Part shown: positions 3,534 to 22,434 of the stretch, in pieces
Numbering within the stretch: position 1 is the stretch's first letter
Layout of the letters: each line of letters opens with the position of its first letter
IMG/VR virus record: IMGVR_UViG_3300032294_000497
Coordinates: 1 to 22,945 of that record
Reading direction: 5' to 3' (one strand)
DNA from: a virus
Length of the DNA: 22,945 nucleotides
Notes under the pieces: generated by a model
The model's database searches: none
What the model saw: only the letters and a program-made list of their open reading frames with translations
Told to the model about the DNA's origin: nothing
Translations under genes and position numbers: made by a program

Positions 3534-3545
3534 CTAGTTTATACT

Positions 3546-4193
3546 TTATGCTATTGCTATATTGGTTGCTGTTCCATCGCCACCACGTGGGAATGTACCA
3601 GCGGCCTGACCTACTCCAGATTCATTGCCAAATGGTCCTGTTTGAATTGCATTGTCATATTGAACGGTTAGTGCAATTTTGATATCTTCACTAGTTCCAT
3701 AATTCACAGTATTGTAGTTGACACTTTCTAAATAGCAACCATACAATTGCCATTGTTCTAGTATCGATGGTGTATTGACGCCGTTTCCGCCATCTAATAT
3801 ATCCAACAATAGTTCGAACTTATAGTCGCTAGCAGATGCTGCACTTGCTTGTTCCATAAAATCAAGTTGCTTCTGTAACTGTGCGCCTACTAACCTAGAA
3901 ATATTGCCGCCAGCATCATCTCTAATGTTGATCGACATTGTATTCCATGTGTGTTTGCCTGCCATATATATAGTAGAGTTATATACTGGCAATGTAATTT
4001 TTGCAAAACTTAGATTAGGTCTTGAACAGTCAACAACTTGTCTGGTCAATTCTAACGAATCTGGACCGCCTGTTGATAAGCCAAAATTACTGAATAATAG
4101 TCTAAATCTATATTGTAATTTAGGCATCAGCAATGGTTGATTACCTGCTGCTGTATCTGCTACCGACAAGTTTCTTAATGATGATGCTGACAT
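3546..4193 (-). CDS. 19: Tail tube protein (gp19-like)
   Basis: 215 aa. gp19 hexamers stack into the inner tube that the sheath drives through the cell envelope. The core (about residues 25-185) shows the family pattern: VVDCSRPNLSFAKITLPVYNSTIYMAGKHTW, then NTMSINIRDDAGGNISRLV, and near the end WQLYGCYLESVNYNTVNYGTSEDIKIALTVQYDNA. This corresponds to the last strands and the typical 'tyr-asp-asn' end of tube proteins. It is longer than T4 gp19 (163 aa), with a flexible N-terminus and a Gly-rich tail. A GATAAATA late promoter (4219-4226) and AGGAG (4206-4210) precede the start. It sits directly after sheath gp18, as in T4. Confidence 0.75.
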   Translation of the reverse strand: MSASSLRNLSVADTAAGNQPLLMPKLQYRFRLLFSNFGLSTGGPDSLELTRQVVDCSRPNLSFAKITLPVYNSTIYMAGKHTWNTMSINIRDDAGGNISRLVGAQLQKQLDFMEQASAASASDYKFELLLDILDGGNGVNTPSILEQWQLYGCYLESVNYNTVNYGTSEDIKIALTVQYDNAIQTGPFGNESGVGQAAGTFPRGGDGTATNIAIA

Positions 4194-4226: not shown

Positions 4227-4230
4227 TTTA

Positions 4231-4259
4231 ATATAATGGGTGCATAGCACCCATTATAT
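4231..4259 (-). terminator. 13-bp hairpin between sheath and tube genes
   Basis: A perfect 13-bp stem (ATATAATGGGTGC and its complement) with a three-base loop, overlapping the last base of the gp18 stop codon. No T-run follows on the minus strand, so it may be an mRNA 3'-end stabiliser or a partial terminator rather than a classic terminator. Confidence 0.6.
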
Positions 4260-7200
4260 TATGCAGAACCTAACTCACCGGTGTTCAATATACGCACTGG
4301 TATGTAGATAAATTCGACTGCTTTTACTGGTTCGATAGCAACATCGACCCAAAGTTCATTTCTATCTATACGAGAAGGTGTGTTGTTTGACGAGTCGCAT
4401 ACTACTAAGTAGTCAAATACTCCCCTCTTTGCAACTAAATCAAGCATCAATGATTCAACTACTCCACTTATTTGAGTTCTAGTAAATGCATCATTTGGTT
4501 CGAACACAAACGGTCTTGCTGCTAGTGTTAGTTGTCTACGAATATATGCGACTAGACGAGCAACATTGGTTCTATCTAGCGCAGATTGCGAGTTGAAACT
4601 AGTTTTATTTCCGTAATTTAACAATCCATTTCCAGTAAAGAATACTAGAGGATTAATGAAATTAACATATAGTGCATCTCTAATGCCCAAACTAGTCTTA
4701 ACGCTCACGAATTCGCCAGTTTGTCTATCAACATATCCAATGCTTAATGCATTGTCAATGCTTCCACGACGAGTACCGGCAGCAGCCAACCATGGATAAG
4801 CCAAGGTGTCATTTCGTAAGAAAGTGCGCAACATCATATGACTTGCAGGCACCGCAACCTCATTTCCACTCAAATCAGTAGCCAATCCACTTGGATAGAA
4901 CAATCCTAAATAAGTGTCACGTGTAACACATCCATCTTCACCTGTTGATTGTGCTGATGCTGCATTAGTTGCCCAATTTTGAATAGCTGTGGCGTTGCAT
5001 GCTAATCCTAATGGAGTATCGCCTATTATGTATCCAGTTTGGCCGCGGTCGTTGTTTAAGACTACCATGTTAGGTTGTAACTCTGGATAGTTAGGAGAAG
5101 CCATTAGGTTGAAGAAATTATCTTCATCACGGACTGCTTGATTAGTGTCAACTGCTGCACGTAGAGCCTGCACTACCATCGCTCTCTGAGCCTTACGACC
5201 CATGAAAGGTGCCCCATTGCTTTGTAATCCACTAGCAGATACCCATGCGTTTGTTTCTACTGGTAAATTTTCTCCTGGGAAGTTTGTACCGCTGAAATAA
5301 TTTTCCTTAAATTGCTTAACATTGTACCCCGAACGACGAGTGTTGAACAATATCATACCTGTTGGGTACAAACTTGACGACGGTGCATCCAAATCCTTGT
5401 AATTACTTGTTAGTAATGACTTGATAGTTGGAATGGGGTCATCAGTAGGACTTATAGTTCCATTAGTTGCCCAGCGTGCATCTGCGAAAACTACGCCGTT
5501 AGAATTTACTTGATCAGTATTGTCTATCAAGATCCACTGTGGAGAACCATCTACTACTTGCCAGCGACTAATGACTGGATAGTTTTCTAAATTAGTAGTA
5601 TTAATCCATAGATCGCCATATACCAATGGAGTACCGTCGCTTTGTGTAGTAGGAGCAGTTGGACTTATGATTGGTCCATTTGGATCAGTCGCATTACTAC
5701 CAGTTGGTGTGGGGAAACCATTTAAATCATAATTTTGATTCTTGTAGCCTTTCCATTCCCCGTTATAGTTAACCATGATATCAACTTGGTCTACAACACT
5801 ATAGAACCAGTTTGTATTGTTTGCAGGTGCTGCCACCGGCGCGCCCTCGTTCGAAGTGTATACAAACTCTACCCAATTACTCATTTCAATGCTGTAATTG
5901 AGCACAGGTGTTCCGGAAACATATTGACACGATACTCCTGGGCCTGTTGGGCCGGGGCCACTGATTTGAGAAACCCTAATAACTAAATTGTTTGATGGAT
6001 TTCCTCCGCCTAAGTTTACACCCGATACAGTAACTGTATCACCGACTGCATATCCTGTTCCACCTGTAGCACCTGTATTAGTATCAATTAAATATATGCT
6101 GCCTGCAACAGTGACATCCACTGCTAAGCCAACGCCAGATCCACTAGTTGAAAGTTGAGGTACATCAAACATCTCAACTGTTACTATTGGTCCGGTTTTG
6201 CAACCACTAGTAGATCCAGCAACAAAGCCTGCCTCATTCAATACCCCTGATGACCTGTTAATTTGCGGTCCATTTAAGTATACGTCATTTATTAGTATAG
6301 TACCGCCTTGAGTATGTGTCAGTTGTATTGCGCCGTCAGTAGTGACCTCGGCCGTTGTGTACGGTATTCCCGCCGCAAGCCATGCAGTCACGAACCCAGT
6401 AGCAGTAGTTCCTTCATTTATATTAAATGAGTATGTAGAACTTAGTGCCGAATTACCTGCCATTGATACTTGTACATTGACTGGATAAGGTCCTGTTCCA
6501 GCAGGTCCTAAATTACTAAAATTAGGATTAGTTTCGGTACCTGTTATAACTGTGGGACCAGTTGCAACTCGCTCCCAGAAATAAACAGGGGCAATTGAGG
6601 TTATTCCGTTGTATTGATATTGATTATACACAGTACCTGCAGGTATATTTAGACCACCTTCAGGATCTAAAGCATTATTTGCTTCCCAATCAGATTGGAA
6701 CAGTCCTACATTCTTGGATGTCCAAGAAGAACCTATCGTATTCCATATTGACATTACTGGATTCAATCCAGATCCAGTTGATCCTACTTTGACCCAAACA
6801 GAACCTGTAGGTCTAGGATTAGTTTGTCCAGCCTGCCACAAAGGCTGCTCAGAAGAATATCCAAAAATCAACTTAGGTTGATAATAAGTTCCTGCAGAAA
6901 TACCCATATCATTAAGAACACCAGTGCCTGAACCTAAAGTTATATATCTTGCATCTGCTATACCTTCGGGGTATTTTTCAAAAATGCATAATTTTCCATT
7001 TCTAACACTTGCTGATAGGTAAGCCCAACCTAAGTTGTTAATAGCAGTAGCAACACCGGTCACAGTTCCAAGGCCGCCGCCTTCGTCAGGAACAGCAATA
7101 GTGACTGTTACATCACCGTCAAGATTAAGAGTAAATGTCTCTCCTGCAGTTAATACAGGATTAGAGATAGTTCCTTGCACTGTAGGCCAATCTGAGCGCC

Positions 7201-7855: not shown

Positions 7856-7910
7856 TTTTCTTTTCCTTTATAGTAATATTGTGAGGTTTACCACCTAAAA
7901 TGCATAATAA

Positions 7911-7918
7911 TATTTATC
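7911..7918 (-). promoter_or_regulatory. T4-like late promoter, GATAAATA, for sheath gp18
   Basis: GATAAATA on the minus strand, 55 nt before the gp18 start. It is one half of a 12-bp inverted repeat (7909-7920 and 7953-7964) whose other half is the late promoter of the endonuclease gene, so the two promoters point apart. Confidence 0.65.
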
Positions 7919-7983: not shown

Positions 7984-8928
7984 ATGAATTTACAAAGCGC
8001 AATTATCTACTGGATACACTTACCTGAGCATACTGACCCTTGCACTGAAGGTTACTTGGGCGTGTCAACAAATTTTGAGCTAAGAATGAAAAATCATATA
8101 ACTGATATTTATAAGAATAAACACAAAAATCCTCATTTGGTAAACGCGGTGAAAAAATATGGGTGGGACAATCTTGTAAAAGATATTATCATGTCGGGTG
8201 AAGAAGCATACTGTTACGACATTGAAGAACAAATGAGACCAAAAAAAGCGATAGGGTGGAATATTGCACCTGGTGGACATAGGGGTCCCGGATGGACAAA
8301 GGGAAGAAAGAAAAGACCAGAGTCAATTGAAAAGCAACAACAAACTATTGCACCTATAAATGAAGCAAAAAGAAAAGCGCGTTTATTAAAACGAGAACTA
8401 CGATTGAGGGAACGAGAACAAAAACGCCAAGCAAAGGCACAAGAAGTTGAACTAGCTAAACAAAAGAGAGAAGAAAAACGTCAAAATAATATAATTAAAA
8501 TGGCAAATAGGCTTAAAGAAAGGGCTAGGCGAATAGAAAAACAAAAACAAGAAGGTACTTATGGATTAGTTCCTAATTATTTTAAACGTCCGATGTGTGC
8601 TATTTGCAATAAAAACTGCCGCGCAATAAACTACATCCGCAATGGAGTAACACACTACCGAAGTACATGTGATGACTGCGGGAGAAAAAAGAAAAAACTT
8701 AAACCACGAAAGCCAAATTGGTTAAACGGTGGCTATAAGAAAAAAACCACATGTGATTTATGTGGTTTTCATGGCATTATTAGTTCTCAATTTACAGTAT
8801 ACCATATAGATGGTAACTTAGAAAACATACAATTAACTAATTTAAGAACTATATGCTTAAATTGCGTAGAAGTAGTAAAAAAGAAAGAAGTAAATTGGAA
8901 ACGTGGTGATTTAGAAATTGATTATTGA
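7984..8928 (+). CDS. GIY-YIG homing endonuclease with C-terminal zinc-finger/HNH-like domain
   Basis: 314 aa. Residues 7-100 form a GIY-YIG nuclease domain: IIYW (7-10), YLGVST (24-29), Arg34, His38, a candidate catalytic Glu at 81/82, and the usual end GWNIAPGG (91-98). Residues about 100-190 are a very charged Lys/Arg/Glu coiled-coil linker. Residues about 204-312 hold four cysteine pairs (C205/C208, C229/C232, C257/C260, C291/C294) and YHIDGNLENIQLTNL (273-287), an HNH-like zinc domain that I recall as a stand-alone protein in marine T4-like phages. It stands on the opposite strand to its neighbours with its own GATAAATA promoter (7955-7962) and a weak AAAGAG site. It overlaps the end of gene 1 by 18 bp. 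Confidence 0.85.
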   Translation: MNLQSAIIYWIHLPEHTDPCTEGYLGVSTNFELRMKNHITDIYKNKHKNPHLVNAVKKYGWDNLVKDIIMSGEEAYCYDIEEQMRPKKAIGWNIAPGGHRGPGWTKGRKKRPESIEKQQQTIAPINEAKRKARLLKRELRLREREQKRQAKAQEVELAKQKREEKRQNNIIKMANRLKERARRIEKQKQEGTYGLVPNYFKRPMCAICNKNCRAINYIRNGVTHYRSTCDDCGRKKKKLKPRKPNWLNGGYKKKTTCDLCGFHGIISSQFTVYHIDGNLENIQLTNLRTICLNCVEVVKKKEVNWKRGDLEIDY

Positions 8929-9516
8929 CTCTATTTGAGAGTGAAGGTCCGTTATAGATCCATCATTACTAATAATATGGTCATATTTTAATCCTACACT
9001 GCTGTACTCGCTTGCGTGTATGTTTTTATATTTCTTAGCAAATTCGAGTGTTCTGCCAGTTTCTAAATATTCCAAGACCCATTCTGGATTTGGGCCACGT
9101 AATACTCGTAGGGTTGTTCCGCCTATATTTTTTATAGCATTCAGTTCATTTTCGAATCTAGTATCTGATATAACAATGTTATCATTTGTGGTACGCAATT
9201 TATTTTCTAAACTCGCTACCCATATATCATCATGATATCCCTGTCTACAAACTTCGGTTCCCCATTCTTGCAATACAGTTCGGGGTGTTACTGTCATGCC
9301 TAATTTGTTGCTCCACCAACTATCTGGTGTTTCTCTCCACGCTCTACTTTCGTTGGTTTTGCCCTCCAACATAATTCTATCCCAACCAAATACAACAGAG
9401 ACTGCATCTTTTAATGCTCCTGCCCAACTTTCTCTACGAAAGCCATGTGTAATAACTAGATAATCGGCTATCGTGTCCTTTCCCGACCCTATTAAACCTG
9501 ATATTGATATGATCAT
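8911..9516 (-). CDS. 1: Deoxynucleoside monophosphate kinase (gp1-like)
   Basis: 201 aa. The T4 gp1 family phosphorylates dGMP, dTMP and hydroxymethyl-dCMP for phage DNA synthesis in the cytoplasm. The P-loop is visible at residues 7-15 (GLIGSGKDT). It is followed by the family patterns WAGALKDAVSVVFGWDR (about 31-47), LQEWGTEVCRQGYHDDIWV (about 83-101) and VISDTRFENELNAI (about 115-128), which carry the nucleotide-binding and acidic residues. It is slightly shorter than T4 gp1 (241 aa). A sigma-70-like promoter (9536-9564) and AGGAG (9524-9528) precede the start. The same AGGAG can be hidden in a hairpin when transcription comes from further upstream. Its 3' end overlaps the convergent GIY-YIG gene. 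Confidence 0.9.
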   Translation of the reverse strand: MIISISGLIGSGKDTIADYLVITHGFRRESWAGALKDAVSVVFGWDRIMLEGKTNESRAWRETPDSWWSNKLGMTVTPRTVLQEWGTEVCRQGYHDDIWVASLENKLRTTNDNIVISDTRFENELNAIKNIGGTTLRVLRGPNPEWVLEYLETGRTLEFAKKYKNIHASEYSSVGLKYDHIISNDGSITDLHSQIESIINF

Positions 9517-9520
9517 GTAA

Positions 9521-9553
9521 AAACTCCTATCCTGTAGTATAATACAGGAGTTT
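9521..9553 (-). promoter_or_regulatory. Hairpin that hides the ribosome binding site of gene 1
   Basis: On the minus strand AAACTCCT (9546-9553) can pair with AGGAGTTT (9521-9528), an 8-bp stem with a 17-nt loop. The second arm contains the AGGAG used by gene 1 and is followed by a short T-run. Transcripts coming from upstream would fold it. RNA starting at the local promoter would lack the first arm. An inner CCTGTA/TACAGG pairing could compete. Confidence 0.5.
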
Positions 9554-9572: not shown

Positions 9573-10400
9573 TTAACCTTGAGCCGAACAATAATCCTCA
9601 TACAATTGTTCTTTGGTCTTGTGGCAATCAGCACCTTTGATTGAATTTTGTATTTTCGGAATTAATCTTAAATTAGTCCAATGACCAATAATTTCAGGTG
9701 GTACATTATTTTTGAATCCTTCAGCAATGCTATAGATATGATCTAAATGAAGGTCACGGCTTCTCTGTAATCTATCAGGGTTAATAATGTAAAAATGTTC
9801 ATACCAGCTACGATTAGTTACCAACTTAACTGCATTGTAATATTCAGTTGCAGCCGATCTATCTATTTCAGAATATCGGTTTAGTGAGGAGGTTGACAGT
9901 TTCTGTTGAATTGCCGGACATTTAGATGGGTTGTCAACTCCATATTTTTTTATCCAAGTCTTTCGTGCGGCCGCGAGACTTGCTACATAGTCTCTATTGC
10001 GTTCTTCCCATGGTTTATGTTTACCTTCATTAAACCCATTAGAAAATTTCTCGTTTGCTTTTTTAGATTTGTCGGGATCACGTTGACGCCAGTGATTTCC
10101 AGTCGTTGCCTTGCTTATTATTTCTCCAATGCCCTTATTTTTCGCCTTAATAGATGAGAATCGTAAATATTCTTTTTCTTTCCATCGCAGAGCTTCTTCA
10201 GTTATAGGACATATTTGGATAGTATAGTTTTCGTTAATAACATGCCAAATTCTCTGTTTTGGTTTAGCATCCTTCGGTAAGAAAGAGGTATTTTCTACAA
10301 TCCAACTCCATAAGTCAGGATGAGTTTTATAGAGGTACCGAGTAACCGATTTGTTATAACTAATGTCGTTTGTAATAAGGGATTCAAGTATGTTCTTCAT
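9573..10400 (-). CDS. HNH homing endonuclease
   Basis: 275 aa. The C-terminal part carries an HNH-type active site: LDHIYSIAEGF with Asp220-His221, TNL with Asn243, and IQNSIKG with Asn252, ending in a CHKTKEQLY helix. The middle has a DNA-binding-type segment (WIKKYGVDNPSKCPAIQQK, about 149-167) that is frequent in phage homing endonucleases. The N-terminal 90 residues are probably a further DNA-recognition part. It is a free-standing gene inserted between gp13 and gene 1. No Shine-Dalgarno is seen. GCTAAATA sits 5 nt before the ATG, so a leaderless late transcript is possible. All HNH residues appear intact. Confidence 0.8.
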   Translation of the reverse strand: MKNILESLITNDISYNKSVTRYLYKTHPDLWSWIVENTSFLPKDAKPKQRIWHVINENYTIQICPITEEALRWKEKEYLRFSSIKAKNKGIGEIISKATTGNHWRQRDPDKSKKANEKFSNGFNEGKHKPWEERNRDYVASLAAARKTWIKKYGVDNPSKCPAIQQKLSTSSLNRYSEIDRSAATEYYNAVKLVTNRSWYEHFYIINPDRLQRSRDLHLDHIYSIAEGFKNNVPPEIIGHWTNLRLIPKIQNSIKGADCHKTKEQLYEDYCSAQG

Positions 10401-10437: not shown

Positions 10438-11235
10438 TTAGCCTTGGATCCAGGTCAGGGGGGCGGAAAAGTCCACATAACGCTTTAGGTCTTCTAACAA
10501 TTGTTCCTGCAATGCTTTGCTTTCGGCTTTCATTGCAGTGCCATTTAATGTAGTTCCGCCGCCGGGTCCCGCAATAGTACCGAATTTTTCTCTGGCTTCC
10601 CCTATGATACCTTTGAGGATTGCTAATGTGTAGTCACCTATCCAAACTCCGGCGCCAGGATCTTGTAATAACTCTGCGACTGGTCGTTGAACATCAGCCC
10701 ATATAAGTATTCTTTCACCTGTTCCTTTAAAGTCACGAACTACGCGTAGGGCTTTGGTCACTGGATTAAAAGTGTAATTTACATACCCACCAAACATTCT
10801 TGCTGCTAATTCGACGTACCCAGCATAGAAATCATAGGTAGCCATACCACCCGTGTAGTTATAGTTCAATAAATAGGTGTTTAGTATGGCACTACTGAAT
10901 GGATCAAAACTTGTTGAACTAGGACCAGTTTCTAGGCCAACTGTACGCCTGTATAAACATCTTACATTAATAAACTCATCGGGTAATGTATATGTATCGA
11001 CATTTTTTACCACTGTCATTAGAGTGTATGACTCTATGTTGGCATTTTGCGCACGTTGTCGATATATTTTTATCGCATAATTAAACGCAGCCTCATAATG
11101 TTGTGGATCTAATTCTAGATCCACAATGTCTCCGCCTAATCGCAATCTTATATTGTTATATAATGCTTCTTTTAATTGGTCTAGGTTAAGACCTGATGGG
11201 GTGTTTAATGGGCTTGCTACTGGTCCTATTGTCAT
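10438..11235 (-). CDS. 13: Neck protein (gp13-like)
   Basis: 265 aa (T4 gp13 is 309 aa). gp13 and gp14 close the filled head and form the neck that receives the tail. The N-terminal helix pair (LRLGGDIVDLELDPQHYEAAFNYAIKIY, about 30-57) and the C-terminal pattern (YTLAILKGIIGEAREKFGTIAGPGGGTTLNG with a following long helix and final W-I-x-G) match the gp13 layout. I chose ATG 11235 rather than GTG 11244, because AGGTGA (11241-11246) lies 5 nt before this ATG. The leader contains a 13-bp hairpin that hides this site, with a late promoter inside it. The gene lies 43 nt after MazG, at the end of an operon with an early-type promoter. Confidence 0.85.
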   Translation of the reverse strand: MTIGPVASPLNTPSGLNLDQLKEALYNNIRLRLGGDIVDLELDPQHYEAAFNYAIKIYRQRAQNANIESYTLMTVVKNVDTYTLPDEFINVRCLYRRTVGLETGPSSTSFDPFSSAILNTYLLNYNYTGGMATYDFYAGYVELAARMFGGYVNYTFNPVTKALRVVRDFKGTGERILIWADVQRPVAELLQDPGAGVWIGDYTLAILKGIIGEAREKFGTIAGPGGGTTLNGTAMKAESKALQEQLLEDLKRYVDFSAPLTWIQG

Positions 11236-11237
11236 AA

Positions 11238-11273
11238 GTATCACCTGATAATAATGTATTTATCAAGTGATAC
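11238..11273 (-). promoter_or_regulatory. 13-bp hairpin hiding the gp13 ribosome binding site
   Basis: Minus strand GTATCACTTGATA (11261-11273) pairs with TATCAGGTGATAC (11238-11250): 13 bp with one G-U pair and a 10-nt loop. The second arm contains AGGTGA, the gp13 ribosome binding site. Read-through RNA from the early operon would fold it. The late promoter lies at the end of the first arm, so late RNA would start in the loop, lack that arm and leave the site open. Confidence 0.7.
11257..11264 (-). promoter_or_regulatory. T4-like late promoter, GATAAATA, for gp13
   Basis: GATAAATA on the minus strand, 21 nt before the gp13 ATG. Predicted RNA start near 11251, the last loop base of the hairpin. 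It explains how gp13 can be late although it follows an early operon. Confidence 0.7.
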
Positions 11274-11278
11274 AGTGA

Positions 11279-11719
11279 TTACAAATCTCCGTCTTTGCGG
11301 TTCTCAGAATAAAATGCGTCAAAATGACCGCCCGGGTACCTAGACTCAAGTTTTTTGATATTTTCTTGAATCACATCATTGGGGTCTACATTAAGGGCCC
11401 TACAAGCATTAATCCAGTACCACATTACATCTCCTAACTCCCTAACCATATGGAAGACATTCTCATCATCCAATGGCTTACCTTGGAAGATGATCTTTTT
11501 GGGCACTTCGATGAATTCACCCGCTTCTGCTGCCAAACCAAAACATGCAGTCATGAGCAAAGGTACATTGATATCAGGGCCATGTGTGCATACAGTGGCA
11601 TCAAAGTTCCCGTCTAGTTCATCTAGCCGATTTATAAATGTAGTCAAGTCATTACTTGCTTTGCTGGTTACAGCCTGTACAAATTCTTGGTATTTGTTTA
11701 GATCAATTTGCTTTGTCAT
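11279..11719 (-). CDS. mazG: MazG-like nucleoside triphosphate pyrophosphohydrolase
   Basis: 146 aa. MazG enzymes hydrolyse (d)NTPs to monophosphates and pyrophosphate, and phage forms are thought to adjust nucleotide pools in the infected cell. The metal-binding signature is visible as AAEAGEFIE (Glu65, Glu68, Glu71) and ELGDVMWY (Glu94, Asp97), followed by the family ending ENIKKLESRYPG (119-130). It starts inside the end of the PTH2-like gene (17-nt overlap) with GGAA 5-6 nt upstream, so it is translationally coupled. It belongs to the 424-aa/PTH2/MazG early operon. The N-terminal 45 residues add a helical segment before the core. Confidence 0.9.
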   Translation of the reverse strand: MTKQIDLNKYQEFVQAVTSKASNDLTTFINRLDELDGNFDATVCTHGPDINVPLLMTACFGLAAEAGEFIEVPKKIIFQGKPLDDENVFHMVRELGDVMWYWINACRALNVDPNDVIQENIKKLESRYPGGHFDAFYSENRKDGDL

Positions 11720-12047
11720 TAATTTCCTTAGTTATTGGTTTCCAAAGTTTTGCAAATTTCAAAACATTTGGAACTTTGTCATTCTCACAGGGAACTGGAA
11801 TAGCGCATGACTTTTCCCCGTTCAATGTGTTATTTTCGTGCCCCAAATATGTATTGGGTAATTCAGAAATTTTCTGAAATTCTTTTCTGTTGACTCTAAC
11901 TACGCATTTTTTGAATGAGTTAGATAGCCACATACAATATGTGGCATCATCTACGAATTTAAGATGAGCACCCAATACTGCATGTGCTACTAATGTAGGA
12001 GTCATGTAGTCTGGAAATTCATCCAGTACTGCTATGTACAATTTCAT
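11703..12047 (-). CDS. Possible peptidyl-tRNA hydrolase 2-like protein
   Basis: 114 aa, starting at ATG 12047 (the upstream GTG at 12050 lies inside the stop context and is less likely). The pattern KLYIAVLDEF...TLVAHAVLGAH, then KKCVVRVNRKEFQKI, then a final SCAIPVPCENDKVPNVLKFAKLW resembles the Pth2 fold. In that fold a first strand leads into an Ala-His helix, a VVKV strand follows, and the chain ends in a strand-turn-helix with 'TVLAIGP'. The usual catalytic Asp is not clearly placed, so activity is doubtful. The start overlaps the upstream stop (TGATG) and the end overlaps MazG. The name is a fold-level suggestion only. Confidence 0.5.
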   Translation of the reverse strand: MKLYIAVLDEFPDYMTPTLVAHAVLGAHLKFVDDATYCMWLSNSFKKCVVRVNRKEFQKISELPNTYLGHENNTLNGEKSCAIPVPCENDKVPNVLKFAKLWKPITKEINDKAN

Positions 12048-13321
12048 CACCAGGCCTTTAGAATCAGCATACTCTCATTGAACCTACCATTAGGTGCAAC
12101 TGATACTGCCTTAATGTCCTTGAAGTATTTACGTGCAGCAGGCTTGCTACCCATAATTTCCTTCAACTGTTCATTTGGCCTGCGCAATGTCTTGATTTCG
12201 CTAGTAGACTTATCAAAGCCCAACAGTGTGTTGCCCTTTACAGTAAAGGTCTTGCTGTATTCATCGGCGATATAGTGGTGTAGTTTGCGCTTGGCAGTGT
12301 CAAACACCCAAGCTTCGCTTGCACCATGCAGTTTCACAGGGTGAAGTCCGACCAAGTCTAATTTGAGCGCATCATCCTTAAAAGCCTTGAGGTACTTAAG
12401 TTTTGATACCTGCTTTTCGACTGGAACTGCCTTACGTGCGCGTGGCGCCTTTGCAGTCTTCTTGATACTGACGTAACTGTTAAAGTCGCTCAAAAATTGA
12501 TCAATAAACTTGAGCAGGTTCTTGAGTTGGGTCTTGTTGTAATGACTATACGCCTCAGACAATTGCTTGTCCTTACCACGAATCACTTCATCAATTTCGT
12601 TACGCTTTTTCTTCCACGTATCAGTTAGAATACTGATATGCTGTGGTAGAACATTCTTTTTTGCCAACTCGTCAATTGGTTTGAAATTGAAGTTAGCCTT
12701 AGCGCCAGAAAGAATGTAATCATCCAGCATACCTTCAATTTCGCCCGCAGCCTCACGTGTACGGTCTCGCATGATTTCCTGCACGTTGGGGCGATTAGAT
12801 TCTTTTACTACTACTTCCTTCTTGCCACCAGTAACACTTACTTTGGTATCAGGGGTAATCACTGATTGAATCAGTTTAGCGACCTCACCGTCGATTCTTT
12901 CCTTTTCAGATTCTGTCAATACAAGTCCACGAAGGCTCATTCTGGCTAGCCAGGCAATGCTGGTCATAAACTGGTTGTCATCTGCCTTTCTGACCTGTTT
13001 GGATTTGTCAGCAGAACCAGTAAGTTCTAGATATTGACATAGCAATTCTTTTGCGTCTTTGCGCCCATAGAACTTGCTGTACCAGTTAAAACTGGACATT
13101 AGTGCAACTTTGCGGCTTTCGGGTTGCGAACTAAAAACTGGCTCAGAACCCATATATTGAAGATCAGGATCTTTGGGAGAAAGAGCCTTAACTATTGAAG
13201 GGTCAATGTTCTTATTCTTGACAGTTCTGGTCACTGTATTTTCTGGTACCTTAGGCCTCACAACCGTTTTTACCTTAGTTTTGGATACTGCCTTCTTTGC
13301 GATAATCTTTTTGGTAGCCAT
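12047..13321 (-). CDS. Conserved T4-like phage protein of unknown function, 424 aa
   Basis: I chose ATG 13321 over an ORF start 39 nt upstream, because AGGAG lies 7 nt before it and the protein then opens MATKKIIAKKAVSKTK. Residues 1-40 are Lys/Ala/Val-rich and histone-tail-like, probably disordered and nucleic-acid binding. Residues about 65-160 are helical (SSFNWYSKFYGRKDAKELLCQYLE is distinctive). The middle is helical with a charged stretch (about 190-290), and the C-terminus has a small strand-rich domain. No catalytic motif is seen. It is the first gene of the operon driven by the perfect sigma-70 promoter at 13349-13377, so early expression is likely. Confidence 0.7.
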   Translation of the reverse strand: MATKKIIAKKAVSKTKVKTVVRPKVPENTVTRTVKNKNIDPSIVKALSPKDPDLQYMGSEPVFSSQPESRKVALMSSFNWYSKFYGRKDAKELLCQYLELTGSADKSKQVRKADDNQFMTSIAWLARMSLRGLVLTESEKERIDGEVAKLIQSVITPDTKVSVTGGKKEVVVKESNRPNVQEIMRDRTREAAGEIEGMLDDYILSGAKANFNFKPIDELAKKNVLPQHISILTDTWKKKRNEIDEVIRGKDKQLSEAYSHYNKTQLKNLLKFIDQFLSDFNSYVSIKKTAKAPRARKAVPVEKQVSKLKYLKAFKDDALKLDLVGLHPVKLHGASEAWVFDTAKRKLHHYIADEYSKTFTVKGNTLLGFDKSTSEIKTLRRPNEQLKEIMGSKPAARKYFKDIKAVSVAPNGRFNESMLILKAW

Positions 13322-13348
13322 ATATGCTCCTATTTCAGTATAGATTGT

Positions 13349-13377
13349 ATTATATATCACTTACCATTTAATGTCAA
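13349..13377 (-). promoter_or_regulatory. Perfect sigma-70 promoter for the 424-aa/PTH2/MazG operon
   Basis: Minus strand TTGACA (13372-13377), exactly 17 bp, then TATAAT (13349-13354). Both boxes match the consensus completely. RNA would start near 13342, giving a 20-nt leader with AGGAG before ATG 13321. This indicates transcription by unmodified host polymerase, hence early expression. Confidence 0.85.
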
Positions 13378-13385
13378 GATAAATA
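13378..13385 (+). promoter_or_regulatory. T4-like late promoter, GATAAATA, for gp14
   Basis: GATAAATA on the plus strand directly abuts the -35 box of the divergent early promoter and ends only 4 nt before the gp14 ATG. T4 spacing would start RNA at 13391, so the gp14 mRNA would be leaderless or start one base earlier than usual. Confidence 0.6.
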
Positions 13386-13389
13386 CATT

Positions 13390-15090
13390 ATGCCAAAGCT
13401 CAGCCTCTATCGTCCCAATAAACAAAATGACTATCGTTTTCTAGACCGCACTATCAGCGAATCTTTTACTGTGGGCGGAACGGATCTATACATACACAAA
13501 TATTTAGGTCCCAAAGATCAGGGCCAAAGTATTGACTATACGCAACCAGAGTATGCTACACTAAGCCCCACGAACATCCAAGATTTGTTATTCTTAGAAA
13601 ACCGTGATAGGACGTATGACCCCAACATCTATAGATTGCGTGGTCACTACAACGTACAAAATTTAGATTTTGATCTAAGTCAATTTGGTTTGTTCTTAAA
13701 CAACGATATCATATTCATAACTATACACTACAATGACATGATTGATCTTGTAGGTAGAAAATTAATGGTCGGCGACGTATTAGAATTACCGCACTTATTA
13801 GATTACAATCCACTAAAAGAAACTATCCCAACAGCACTTAAAAGGTTTTATCAAATTACAGATGCAAATTATGCGAGTGAAGGTTTTAGTCAAACATGGT
13901 TTCCGCATCTATGGCGTATAAAATGTGAGCCACTGGTAGACAGCCAAGAATTTAGCGAGATATTACAAGAGCCAATCAACAAAGATAATTACCTGGGTGT
14001 ATGGGATAACACAAAAACATATCCTGCAGGATACGTGATTCAATATGGGGATAAAAATTACAAATCAAAAATTGAAGTACCGGCAGGAATTTCTCCACCC
14101 AATGCTACGTACTGGGAACTAGATACTGGTGGTGATCTTAAAGATATATTATCAGCGTATAATAAAAATATACAAATCAATAACGCTGCGTTGGAAGAAG
14201 CAAAACGTATAGTACCTAAGTCTGGATATGACCAGAGCAATTTGTACATTGTACCTACATACGGTGAATATGAGACTAACACTCAATTATCAGGTAAGAC
14301 AAATCAGCCTGCTCCACCTATAAATGTCACTATAGTTCCTGGGCCCCCTATAACAGTTTCGGTAGTTAACAACCCCAATTATAGACTTTCTAGTATTGGT
14401 CTAAGAATACCAAAGCAAACATTAAAAAATATATGGGACCTTACTGCGGATATAGATGACGTTAGCATCTTAGATAAGTTTGTGCCTGCTAATCTAGATT
14501 TGATTTATCAAGCACCAAAATTATCTAGTACCGGGTCAGGACCATTAGAAGGAGACATGTTGCTTGCCGTAAGTCCATTGGGAGCAGTCAGTGGACCATA
14601 TGGAACTGCGGATAATACTTTTGCTACTGCGGACCAAGACCCCACTGCCCCCGGATTTAATGGCACAGTAAGTTCAGTGATGAACTACCGGGCAGATTGC
14701 GACCCCGCGTTTCAGTTTATTGCTAGATCAACTCCTAGAACGTTTGGATATACAACCGGTTATCTAACTGGCGATGGTACTGCACCTAATGGGTTCCCGA
14801 CCGGCGCAGGAATAGCATTTCCGCAAAATCCACAAGTAGGTGATTACTTTTTGCGGATAGATTATTTACCTCAAGTGTTATTCCGTTGGGATGGAAAATT
14901 ATGGTTAAGAATATCAGAAAACGTAAGAACAGAAACTGGATTTGGTATAAATGATAAATCATTGATGTCAACGTTTATAAATAACACTAATGAAATCTAT
15001 TTAGAAAGCGAACAACAATTGGTACCTGAAGCTCAGCCATTGTCAGAAATATTAATGACCCCAAAAGATCCATTACCACCTACACCGTAA
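13390..15090 (+). CDS. 14: Neck protein (gp14-like), enlarged
   Basis: 566 aa, more than twice T4 gp14 (256 aa). The N-terminal part keeps the gp14 pattern: GTDLYIHKYLGP (30-41), LFLENRDRTYDPNIY (67-81), LSQFGLFLNNDIIFITIHYNDM (96-117), then VGDVLELPHL (127-136). Residues 200-246 (YLGVWDNTKTYPAGYVIQYGDKNY...YW) look like a carbohydrate-binding-module type insert (W...Y..GD.V.Y...Y...W). Residues 480-510 (PQVGDYFLRIDYLPQVLFRWDGKLWLRI) form another surface-type module, and the C-terminus is acidic and Pro-rich. No Shine-Dalgarno is visible: GATAAATA ends 4 nt before the ATG. It lies on the plus strand, unlike gp13. Confidence 0.8.
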   Translation: MPKLSLYRPNKQNDYRFLDRTISESFTVGGTDLYIHKYLGPKDQGQSIDYTQPEYATLSPTNIQDLLFLENRDRTYDPNIYRLRGHYNVQNLDFDLSQFGLFLNNDIIFITIHYNDMIDLVGRKLMVGDVLELPHLLDYNPLKETIPTALKRFYQITDANYASEGFSQTWFPHLWRIKCEPLVDSQEFSEILQEPINKDNYLGVWDNTKTYPAGYVIQYGDKNYKSKIEVPAGISPPNATYWELDTGGDLKDILSAYNKNIQINNAALEEAKRIVPKSGYDQSNLYIVPTYGEYETNTQLSGKTNQPAPPINVTIVPGPPITVSVVNNPNYRLSSIGLRIPKQTLKNIWDLTADIDDVSILDKFVPANLDLIYQAPKLSSTGSGPLEGDMLLAVSPLGAVSGPYGTADNTFATADQDPTAPGFNGTVSSVMNYRADCDPAFQFIARSTPRTFGYTTGYLTGDGTAPNGFPTGAGIAFPQNPQVGDYFLRIDYLPQVLFRWDGKLWLRISENVRTETGFGINDKSLMSTFINNTNEIYLESEQQLVPEAQPLSEILMTPKDPLPPTP

Positions 15091-22113: not shown

Positions 22114-22434
22114 CTATACTCTAAAACTCTCGCCGCAACCGCAGCGGTCTTTTTCATTGGGATTCGCAAACTCAAAGCCCTCATTCAAACCATTGCGAAC
22201 ATAATCTATTGTCATTCCTTGCAAGTAAGGACAACTCTTAGGATCAATATATAATTTACAATTATTACAATCTATTGACACATCAGTGTCTAATGGAGAA
22301 TCTACAAATTCTAATACATAGGCTAGACCAGAACATCCAGTGGTTTTAACACCAATACGAATTCCTAATCCACTACCTCTTTTTTGTAATTGCTGTTTTA
22401 TTTTGTTACTAGCAGTTTCTGTGACAGTGATCAT
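22114..22434 (-). CDS. iscA: Iron-sulphur cluster assembly protein IscA-like
   Basis: 106 aa, essentially the length of bacterial IscA (107 aa). A-type carriers receive Fe-S clusters or iron and pass them to target enzymes. The three ligand cysteines are at Cys34 (TTGCSGLAYVLEFVD), Cys98 and Cys100 (RCGCGESFRV), the exact family spacing. The match to Escherichia coli IscA as I recall it is strong (RGxGxGxRxGVxTxGCSGxAYVLEFVD; GLNEGFxFxNPN). It therefore looks like a true bacterial IscA rather than a distant phage HesB. The ATG overlaps the stop of the 109-aa gene (ATGA), so the two are translationally coupled within a virion gene region. Confidence 0.95.
   Translation of the reverse strand: MITVTETASNKIKQQLQKRGSGLGIRIGVKTTGCSGLAYVLEFVDSPLDTDVSIDCNNCKLYIDPKSCPYLQGMTIDYVRNGLNEGFEFANPNEKDRCGCGESFRV

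Follow-up and report, generated by a model that had tools for sequence, protein, structure and literature searches.

A late promoter inside a hairpin over the ribosome-binding site of the phage neck gene gp13: a probable translation gate kept by compensatory change among jumbo-phage relatives

Background

How can a late virion-assembly gene stay silent early in infection when it lies behind an operon that is read from an early promoter? The question is raised by a gp13-like neck gene in a virus record of 22,945 bases (IMG/VR IMGVR_UViG_3300032294_000497), which was analysed at its full length and is called the window below. Control at the level of translation is familiar from the fold-back inhibition of read-through transposase mRNA in IS10 and other insertion sequences. 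There, a transcript begun at a promoter outside the element folds back on its ribosome site, and a transcript from the element's own promoter lacks the 5' part and is translated. Gates that combine a late promoter with a hairpin over the ribosome-binding site have been described for T4 e, soc, 49, 25, 26, I-TevI/II/III and segB and for Aeh1 mobE (PMC3014915, PMC2988022). A sequence-only reading of the window had proposed that gp13 carries a gate of this kind, and that proposal is followed up here by folding and by comparison with related phages.

Results and discussion

The neck gene and the operon upstream

The identification of gp13 as a neck protein in the sequence-only reading is borne out by a match to PHROG 211 (head-tail adaptor Ad2, E 1e-23) and by tblastn matches to jumbo-phage proteins annotated as neck proteins, the closest relatives with annotation being jumbo phages at roughly 32-41% protein identity. 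The gene lies downstream of co-directional genes (Table 1), and the "perfect early promoter" claimed for this operon is present at 13377-13349 on the minus strand, with all 12 consensus bases of TTGACA-17-TATAAT. The promoter is conserved: at orthologous junctions at least 11 of 12 bases match in 23 of 29 distinct cases, as against 3 of 348 random stretches. No terminator-like site was found on the minus strand between this promoter and gp13. Early timing of the operon is suggested by its sigma70-type promoter and its gene content. The first open reading frame of the operon opens with GTG at 13360, and an ATG at about 13321 is the likelier start.

The gene order is kept in relatives as bp566 (divergent) / 437-aa gene, (115-aa gene), mazG, gp13, dNMK, sheath. 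In the window, dNMK is flanked by two probable homing-endonuclease-type genes, at 9573-10400 (minus strand) and 7984-8928 (plus strand); of these, the gene that separates dNMK from gp13 is missing from many relatives.

Anatomy of the gp13 leader

On the minus strand the gp13 leader reads GTATCACTTGATAA-ATACATTA-TTATCAGGTGATAC-TT-ATG and folds into a hairpin (11238-11273) with an 8-nt loop. The sequence-only reading had described this structure as a 13-bp hairpin; the hairpin is there, and its length comes to 14 pairs, 13 of them Watson-Crick and one U-G. The free energy that had been proposed as a check of stability was calculated as -16.6 kcal/mol for the stem. AGGTGA was located in the 3' arm, at 11246-11241, as claimed. 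The late promoter had been placed at the end of the 5' arm, which holds for the first five bases of GATAAATA, the remainder lying in the loop. The late start at 11251, deduced from T4 spacing, is correct as a position, but this base is the first of the 3' arm and not the last of the loop. With these small corrections the observation is real. The 5' arm is found only in RNA begun upstream, and the computed probability that the Shine-Dalgarno sequence (SD, scored on the GGTGAT match) is unpaired is 0.00 in the long RNA and 0.44 in the late RNA, with a range of 0.44-0.58 for late RNA whose start is predicted by spacing.

Stem length by itself does not decide against chance; dinucleotide shuffles yield about 0.7 stems of 14 pairs per strand of the window when G-U pairs are allowed. 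The local fold at the leader is nevertheless exceptional (z = -3.9; 1 of 200 shuffles), and chance is ruled out by this fold taken together with its exact placement on promoter and SD and with its compensatory conservation in relatives.

Table 1. Features of the gp13 region, in coordinates of the window
Feature	Position	Strand	Basis or remark
dNMK (deoxynucleoside monophosphate kinase), early-type, downstream of gp13	8911-9516	-	PHROG 139, E 2e-43; PF21448
Candidate mirror-image gate: hairpin over the dNMK SD, early-type -10 (TATACT) inside	9521-9553	-	10 pairs, -9.5 kcal/mol
gp13-like neck / head-tail adaptor gene	10438-11235	-	ATG at 11235; 265 aa
3' arm of gp13 hairpin, TTATCAGGTGATAC	11238-11251	-	Fold
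Shine-Dalgarno AGGTGA in 3' arm	11241-11246	-	Sequence; 5 nt before ATG
Predicted late transcription start, loop/3'-arm junction	11251-11252	-	Predicted from T4 spacing
Loop of gp13 hairpin	11259-11252	-	Fold
Late promoter GATAAATA, over 5' arm end and loop	11257-11264	-	Motif scan
5' arm of gp13 hairpin, GTATCACTTGATAA	11260-11273 (read 11273-11260)	-	Fold; covariation in relatives
mazG-like pyrophosphatase gene, early-type, directly upstream of gp13	11279-11719	-	PF03819, E 3.5e-9; PHROG 229
115-aa gene, same operon as mazG	11703-12050	-	PHROG 5822 (function unknown)
First gene of the operon upstream of gp13	12047-13360	-	PHROG 11903 (function unknown)
Sigma70-type early promoter of the operon upstream of gp13, TTGACA-17-TATAAT	13349-13377	-	12/12 match
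bp566 (virion protein), divergent, probably leaderless late gene	13379-13390; ATG at 13390	+	First A of late motif 11 nt before ATG

Late promoter and transcription start

The late motif is nearly invariant in related gp13 leaders, being ATAAATA in 313 of 316 and CTAAATA in the other three. The position at which late RNA begins can be calibrated on bp566, in which a conserved ATG follows the end of the late promoter after 4-5 nt and an SD is absent from most of the 31 distinct relatives listed; in the window, the first A of ATAAATA precedes this ATG by 11 nt. The late mRNA of bp566 is thus probably leaderless, and its promoter-to-ATG spacing without an SD places late starts in this group some 11-12 nt downstream of the motif's first A. 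Measured against the beginning of the 3' arm, the predicted gp13 start falls at a median of -2 nt (range -6 to +3, n = 49 leaders). One related record encodes a late sigma factor of the gp55 type (G001; PHROG 12791, E 4e-76), and no match to such a factor was found in six other related records searched, all of them fragments. For jumbo phage CBB a gp55-like factor and an ATAAATA late motif have been reported, and the motif has been reported for GAP32 too (PMC5259590).

Taking leader and promoters together, we consider it highly probable that the gp13 leader gates translation according to the point at which the RNA was begun. RNA made early from the 13377-13349 promoter would run through the mazG operon into gp13 with both arms present, the SD would be locked in the 14-pair stem, and neck protein would not be made early. 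Once the phage late sigma factor acts, RNA polymerase would start at GATAAATA and produce RNA from 11251-11252, in which, without the 5' arm, AGGTGA would become accessible and gp13 would be translated. Early read-through, the late RNA 5' end and the effect on translation at gp13 are what we infer.

Compensatory change in related leaders

Viral contigs were scanned five times with gp13 proteins, and 316 leaders could be used, one of them the window's; they reduce to 75 distinct leaders at 85% similarity; 65 of these have a coding gene upstream and nine lie behind a noncoding element. In the 65, the native arm duplex has an energy of -12.1 kcal/mol, compared with -7.17 +/- 0.30 kcal/mol when arms are exchanged between leaders, and none of 20,000 permutations was as low as the native value. 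Covariation was scored in three gap-free alignments, each of leaders with equal loop length, and amounted to 0.43, 0.44 and 0.29 against 0.19, 0.18 and 0.11 after shuffling (0 of 500 shuffles as high). Six to seven pairs per alignment had changed on both sides (two-sided changes in 23, 18 and 12 cells), and the signal was gone when the partner was slid by one to three bases. Compensatory changes of the stem in relatives had been set beforehand as a test of the proposal, and the outcome of both the arm exchange and the covariation analysis is strongly positive.

The predicted switch is also computed for these leaders: the SD has a median unpaired probability of 0.004 in read-through RNA and of 0.49 in late-start RNA, the change being seen in 58 of 65 leaders (p = 8e-9). 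The pairing sets gp13 apart from other late genes of eight records (8 vs 86 genes, p = 1e-7), the median pairing of the other late-promoter genes in these records being 0.24. Comparison thus supports the interpretation of the leader as a probable gate.

Alternative explanations

The pairing might be a by-product, in which promoter GATA(AATA) and the TATC and AGG of the SD region simply happen to be complementary. The GATA/TATC tip pairs are indeed nearly invariant in part of the set and carry no covariation signal there, as this explanation would have it. With the GATA core left out, however, native pairing is equally specific (-8.04 vs -4.57 +/- 0.24 kcal/mol for exchanged arms), and the other late-promoter genes of the same genomes show no such pairing. 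The arm-exchange test refutes a by-product, whose probability we regard as close to negligible. It is highly unlikely, too, that the hairpin is an intrinsic terminator of the mazG operon whose overlap with the late promoter is incidental. Its position as a stable stem between two operons would suit that role, and in XaC1, 121Q and GAP32 the gp13 stem is followed by 6-8 T, so that it may serve in transcription termination there as well, in a double role. In the window's group, by contrast, a run of at least five T in the eight bases after the stem occurs in none of 49 stable stems, the window itself having TTATGACA at this place, and termination was rejected for this group on the absence of T-runs; moreover, a terminator would require neither an SD in the 3' arm nor a late start at the arm edge.

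Alternatively, the inverted repeat could act as DNA, as an operator at which a dimeric repressor blocks the late promoter early. The palindrome does overlap the late promoter, and autorepression by I-TevI at such sites, at its own late promoter in T4, is known (PMC2988022). What argues against an operator is that the arm sequence varies as long as both sides change together (CCTG/CAGG, CCAG/CTGG, CCCG/CGGG, TCCG/CGGA) and that loop length varies, which would shift the half sites; it is this combination of covariation and loop-length change that disfavours the reading. The repeat is also lost where upstream read-through is less likely. G-U pairs are tolerated in sense RNA, and the non-Watson-Crick pairs are biased to G-U over A-C (24 to 13), although the significance against composition is modest (p = 0.03). 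On this evidence we judge an operator extremely unlikely. A gate that is not directed at early RNA specifically, acting against other late or middle RNAs or tuning the dose of neck protein, is unlikely as well. It would accommodate some gated late genes of XaC1 and related records, which were not tied to early operons, and the timing of the upstream operon is read from promoter type and gene content only. Yet the promoter upstream of gp13 is sigma70-like, not late, and conserved, and the upstream genes include one for nucleotide metabolism of the mazG type. The reading we prefer remains a gate against early read-through RNA.

Loss of the hairpin behind a noncoding element

A hairpin with a dG of at most -5 kcal/mol is present in 75% of the 65 leaders with a coding gene upstream. 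In the remainder, about a quarter, the stem is weaker, and in eight it is essentially absent; the leaders with weak or no stem despite a coding gene upstream are L007, L045/L039, L071, L175, L257, L330, L160 and L297. Some relatives have gp13 separated from the upstream genes by a conserved noncoding element, about 370 nt long (L013, 3540-3950; L053, 3545-3945; L008, 3540-3930; L068, about 3545-3990). Located between mazG and gp13, it shows 71-76% identity between phages, with invariant blocks, reaches the gathering score of no Rfam family (matches below it being at chance level) and has no match in cultured phage records. It is likely an undescribed structured RNA. An opposite-strand protein gene, suspected as the separating element from the motif CTACTCGCC, was not supported, there being no convincing open reading frame at that place, and no tRNA genes were found between mazG and gp13 at weak-hairpin loci.

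None of the nine leaders behind the noncoding element has a hairpin at the -5 kcal/mol threshold, against 75% of the 65 (p = 7e-6), and the hairpin is kept where an extra same-strand coding gene has been inserted instead (e.g. L033, L035, L036, L048). The window belongs to a supported group of four of which the other three carry the element and are devoid of the hairpin. Mapped on the gp13 tree, the element has been gained or lost at least eight times; among independent pairs, four are well supported, with hairpin loss accompanying the element in 3.6 on average and running against it in none, and the phylogeny-corrected contrast, drawn from only these four pairs, falls short of significance (p = 0.125). 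Reduced read-through behind the element is a plausible reason for the loss; a clear terminator ahead of it was seen at one of nine distinct loci. Retention of the promoter with loss of the pairing, which the sequence-only reading had named as evidence against a gate, therefore does occur, mostly where read-through is less likely (the nine distinct leaders) and otherwise in the minority of exceptions listed above. The rule that this suggests, a hairpin where upstream read-through is possible and none where it is unlikely, would make transcript overlap predictable from sequence. When gated late genes close behind a same-strand gene were sought across seven related records, there was no difference by strand of the neighbour.

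Cultured jumbo phages and known systems

At gp13 of the cultured phages XaC1, 121Q, RaK2, GAP32, XbC2, Munch/PHA46 and Hallingskeid, in all of which gp13 lies behind co-directional genes, a hairpin that sequesters the SD encloses a promoter of the late type (CTAAATA or ATAAATA); the RaK2 case was read from the sequence by eye and not scored. The arms differ among these phages (CCTC/GAGG, CCCC/GGGG, CACCCC/GGGGTG, CACCTC/GAGGTG). The gate is weak in PA5oct, and no strong one was found at gp13 of Atu_ph07, Phosso, Vibrio 2.275.O or SCTP-2, where the upstream gene is on the opposite strand. Accessibility of the SD in late RNA is only about 0.5 by folding, and some of the cultured phages have low values, such as 0.19 in XaC1. 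Genome-wide, gates were in significant excess in XaC1 (9 of 40, p = 2e-4) but not in 121Q (p = 0.06), although the two strongest gates of 121Q are at sheath and gp13. In the deposited genomes of 121Q and RaK2 the annotated gp13 start, ATGAGGTGC, lies within the SD (L368, 1459-1474, and L407, 853-865, respectively). The gate reading requires a shift, and the start is likely 12-15 nt downstream of the annotated one in both; likely wrong start codons in deposited genomes are thereby pointed out. The sheath leaders of XaC1 (L367) and 121Q (L368) have the form ATCCTCC(A)ATAAATA ... TTGGAGGAT, with an SD arm that pairs across the late promoter over a loop of about 40 nt, and sheath is possibly a second gated gene in these phages.

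That T4 uses such logic, as the sequence-only reading had stated, agrees with the published cases e and 49, which yield the same computed signature with the same script: the probability of an unpaired SD goes from 0.00 to 0.58 and 0.81 in e (two late promoters), from 0.00 to 0.53 in 49, and from 0.28 to 0.89 in I-TevII. As in T4 e, the gp13 leader has a late promoter in or beside the 5' arm, an SD in the 3' arm and a predicted late RNA without the 5' arm, and the gated gene would lie within an early/middle read-through unit. The gp13 gate is thus very probably one more case of the type known from T4 e, soc, 49 and I-TevI; its comparative support is unusually strong, and it comes with a contrast set of leaders that have lost it. 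It differs from the T4 cases in that the gene is a neck gene of jumbo-phage relatives, not one for lysis, decoration, recombination, baseplate or homing, and in that it reaches much deeper phylogenetically, its arms varying from phage to phage, and has contrast loci from which the hairpin is gone. The earlier statement that no neck-gene case had been reported fits our full-text search of the available literature, which found none, and the gp13 leader of T4 itself has neither a late promoter nor a hairpin. In IS10 fold-back guards the transposase against chance outside promoters, whereas the gp13 gate would provide stage-specific timing through a phage late promoter.

If read correctly, the gp13 leader extends the T4 device beyond lysis and homing genes to a virion-assembly gene, where it would have been maintained by compensatory evolution across a large jumbo-phage group that includes cultured phages of E. 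coli and Salmonella. It would also explain how a gene for a late structural protein can keep its place among genes of nucleotide metabolism.

A mirror-image arrangement at dNMK

Downstream of gp13, the leader of dNMK presents what looks like the same device in reverse (Table 1). In 19 of 68 distinct leaders of dNMK orthologues the SD (CTCCTGTAATATAATATATATTTTACAGGAG) forms the 3' arm of a hairpin that contains an early-type -10, and in these the expected start falls at the loop/3'-arm junction. The arms co-vary in a cross-pairing test in relatives (p = 1e-4), and in gated leaders taken by themselves the native value is -15.0 against -11.7 +/- 0.5. In another 12 of the 68 the -10 is placed for an RNA that begins at the ATG, i.e. 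leaderless. We hypothesize that the hairpin would silence dNMK on late read-through RNA from gp13. Some dNMK stems are followed by T-runs, and a terminator for the gp13 RNA is an equally simple explanation for part of these stems. Such an early-type promoter within the hairpin over its own ribosome site, in some relatives, is the newest element of the findings, and IS10 is the closer parallel for it, given the sigma70-type promoter. More broadly, several interleaved early and late genes may be translated only from RNA initiated at the promoter of the gene itself, read-through RNA being shut out both early and late, with hairpin gates and leaderless starts interchangeable, a tentative generalization to which we give somewhat less than even credence; if true, both would be solutions to an interleaved gene order with overlapping transcripts.

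The sheath gene of the window and its relatives has a long 5' leader after the late promoter (minus strand, about 7856-7917 in the window), which contains a conserved small stem-loop, AGGTGGTAAACCT (variants AGGGTTGTTACCCT and AGGCTTGTTGTAAGCCT), followed by TTTTACATAAAGGAA, with apparent compensatory variation. A perfect hairpin of 15 pairs, not followed by a T-run, lies at 4229-4261, where the sheath gene ends and immediately ahead of the tail tube gene's late promoter. The window also encodes an Fe-S_biosyn (iron-sulphur cluster assembly) protein on the minus strand, at 22114-22434, in what is a phage fragment.
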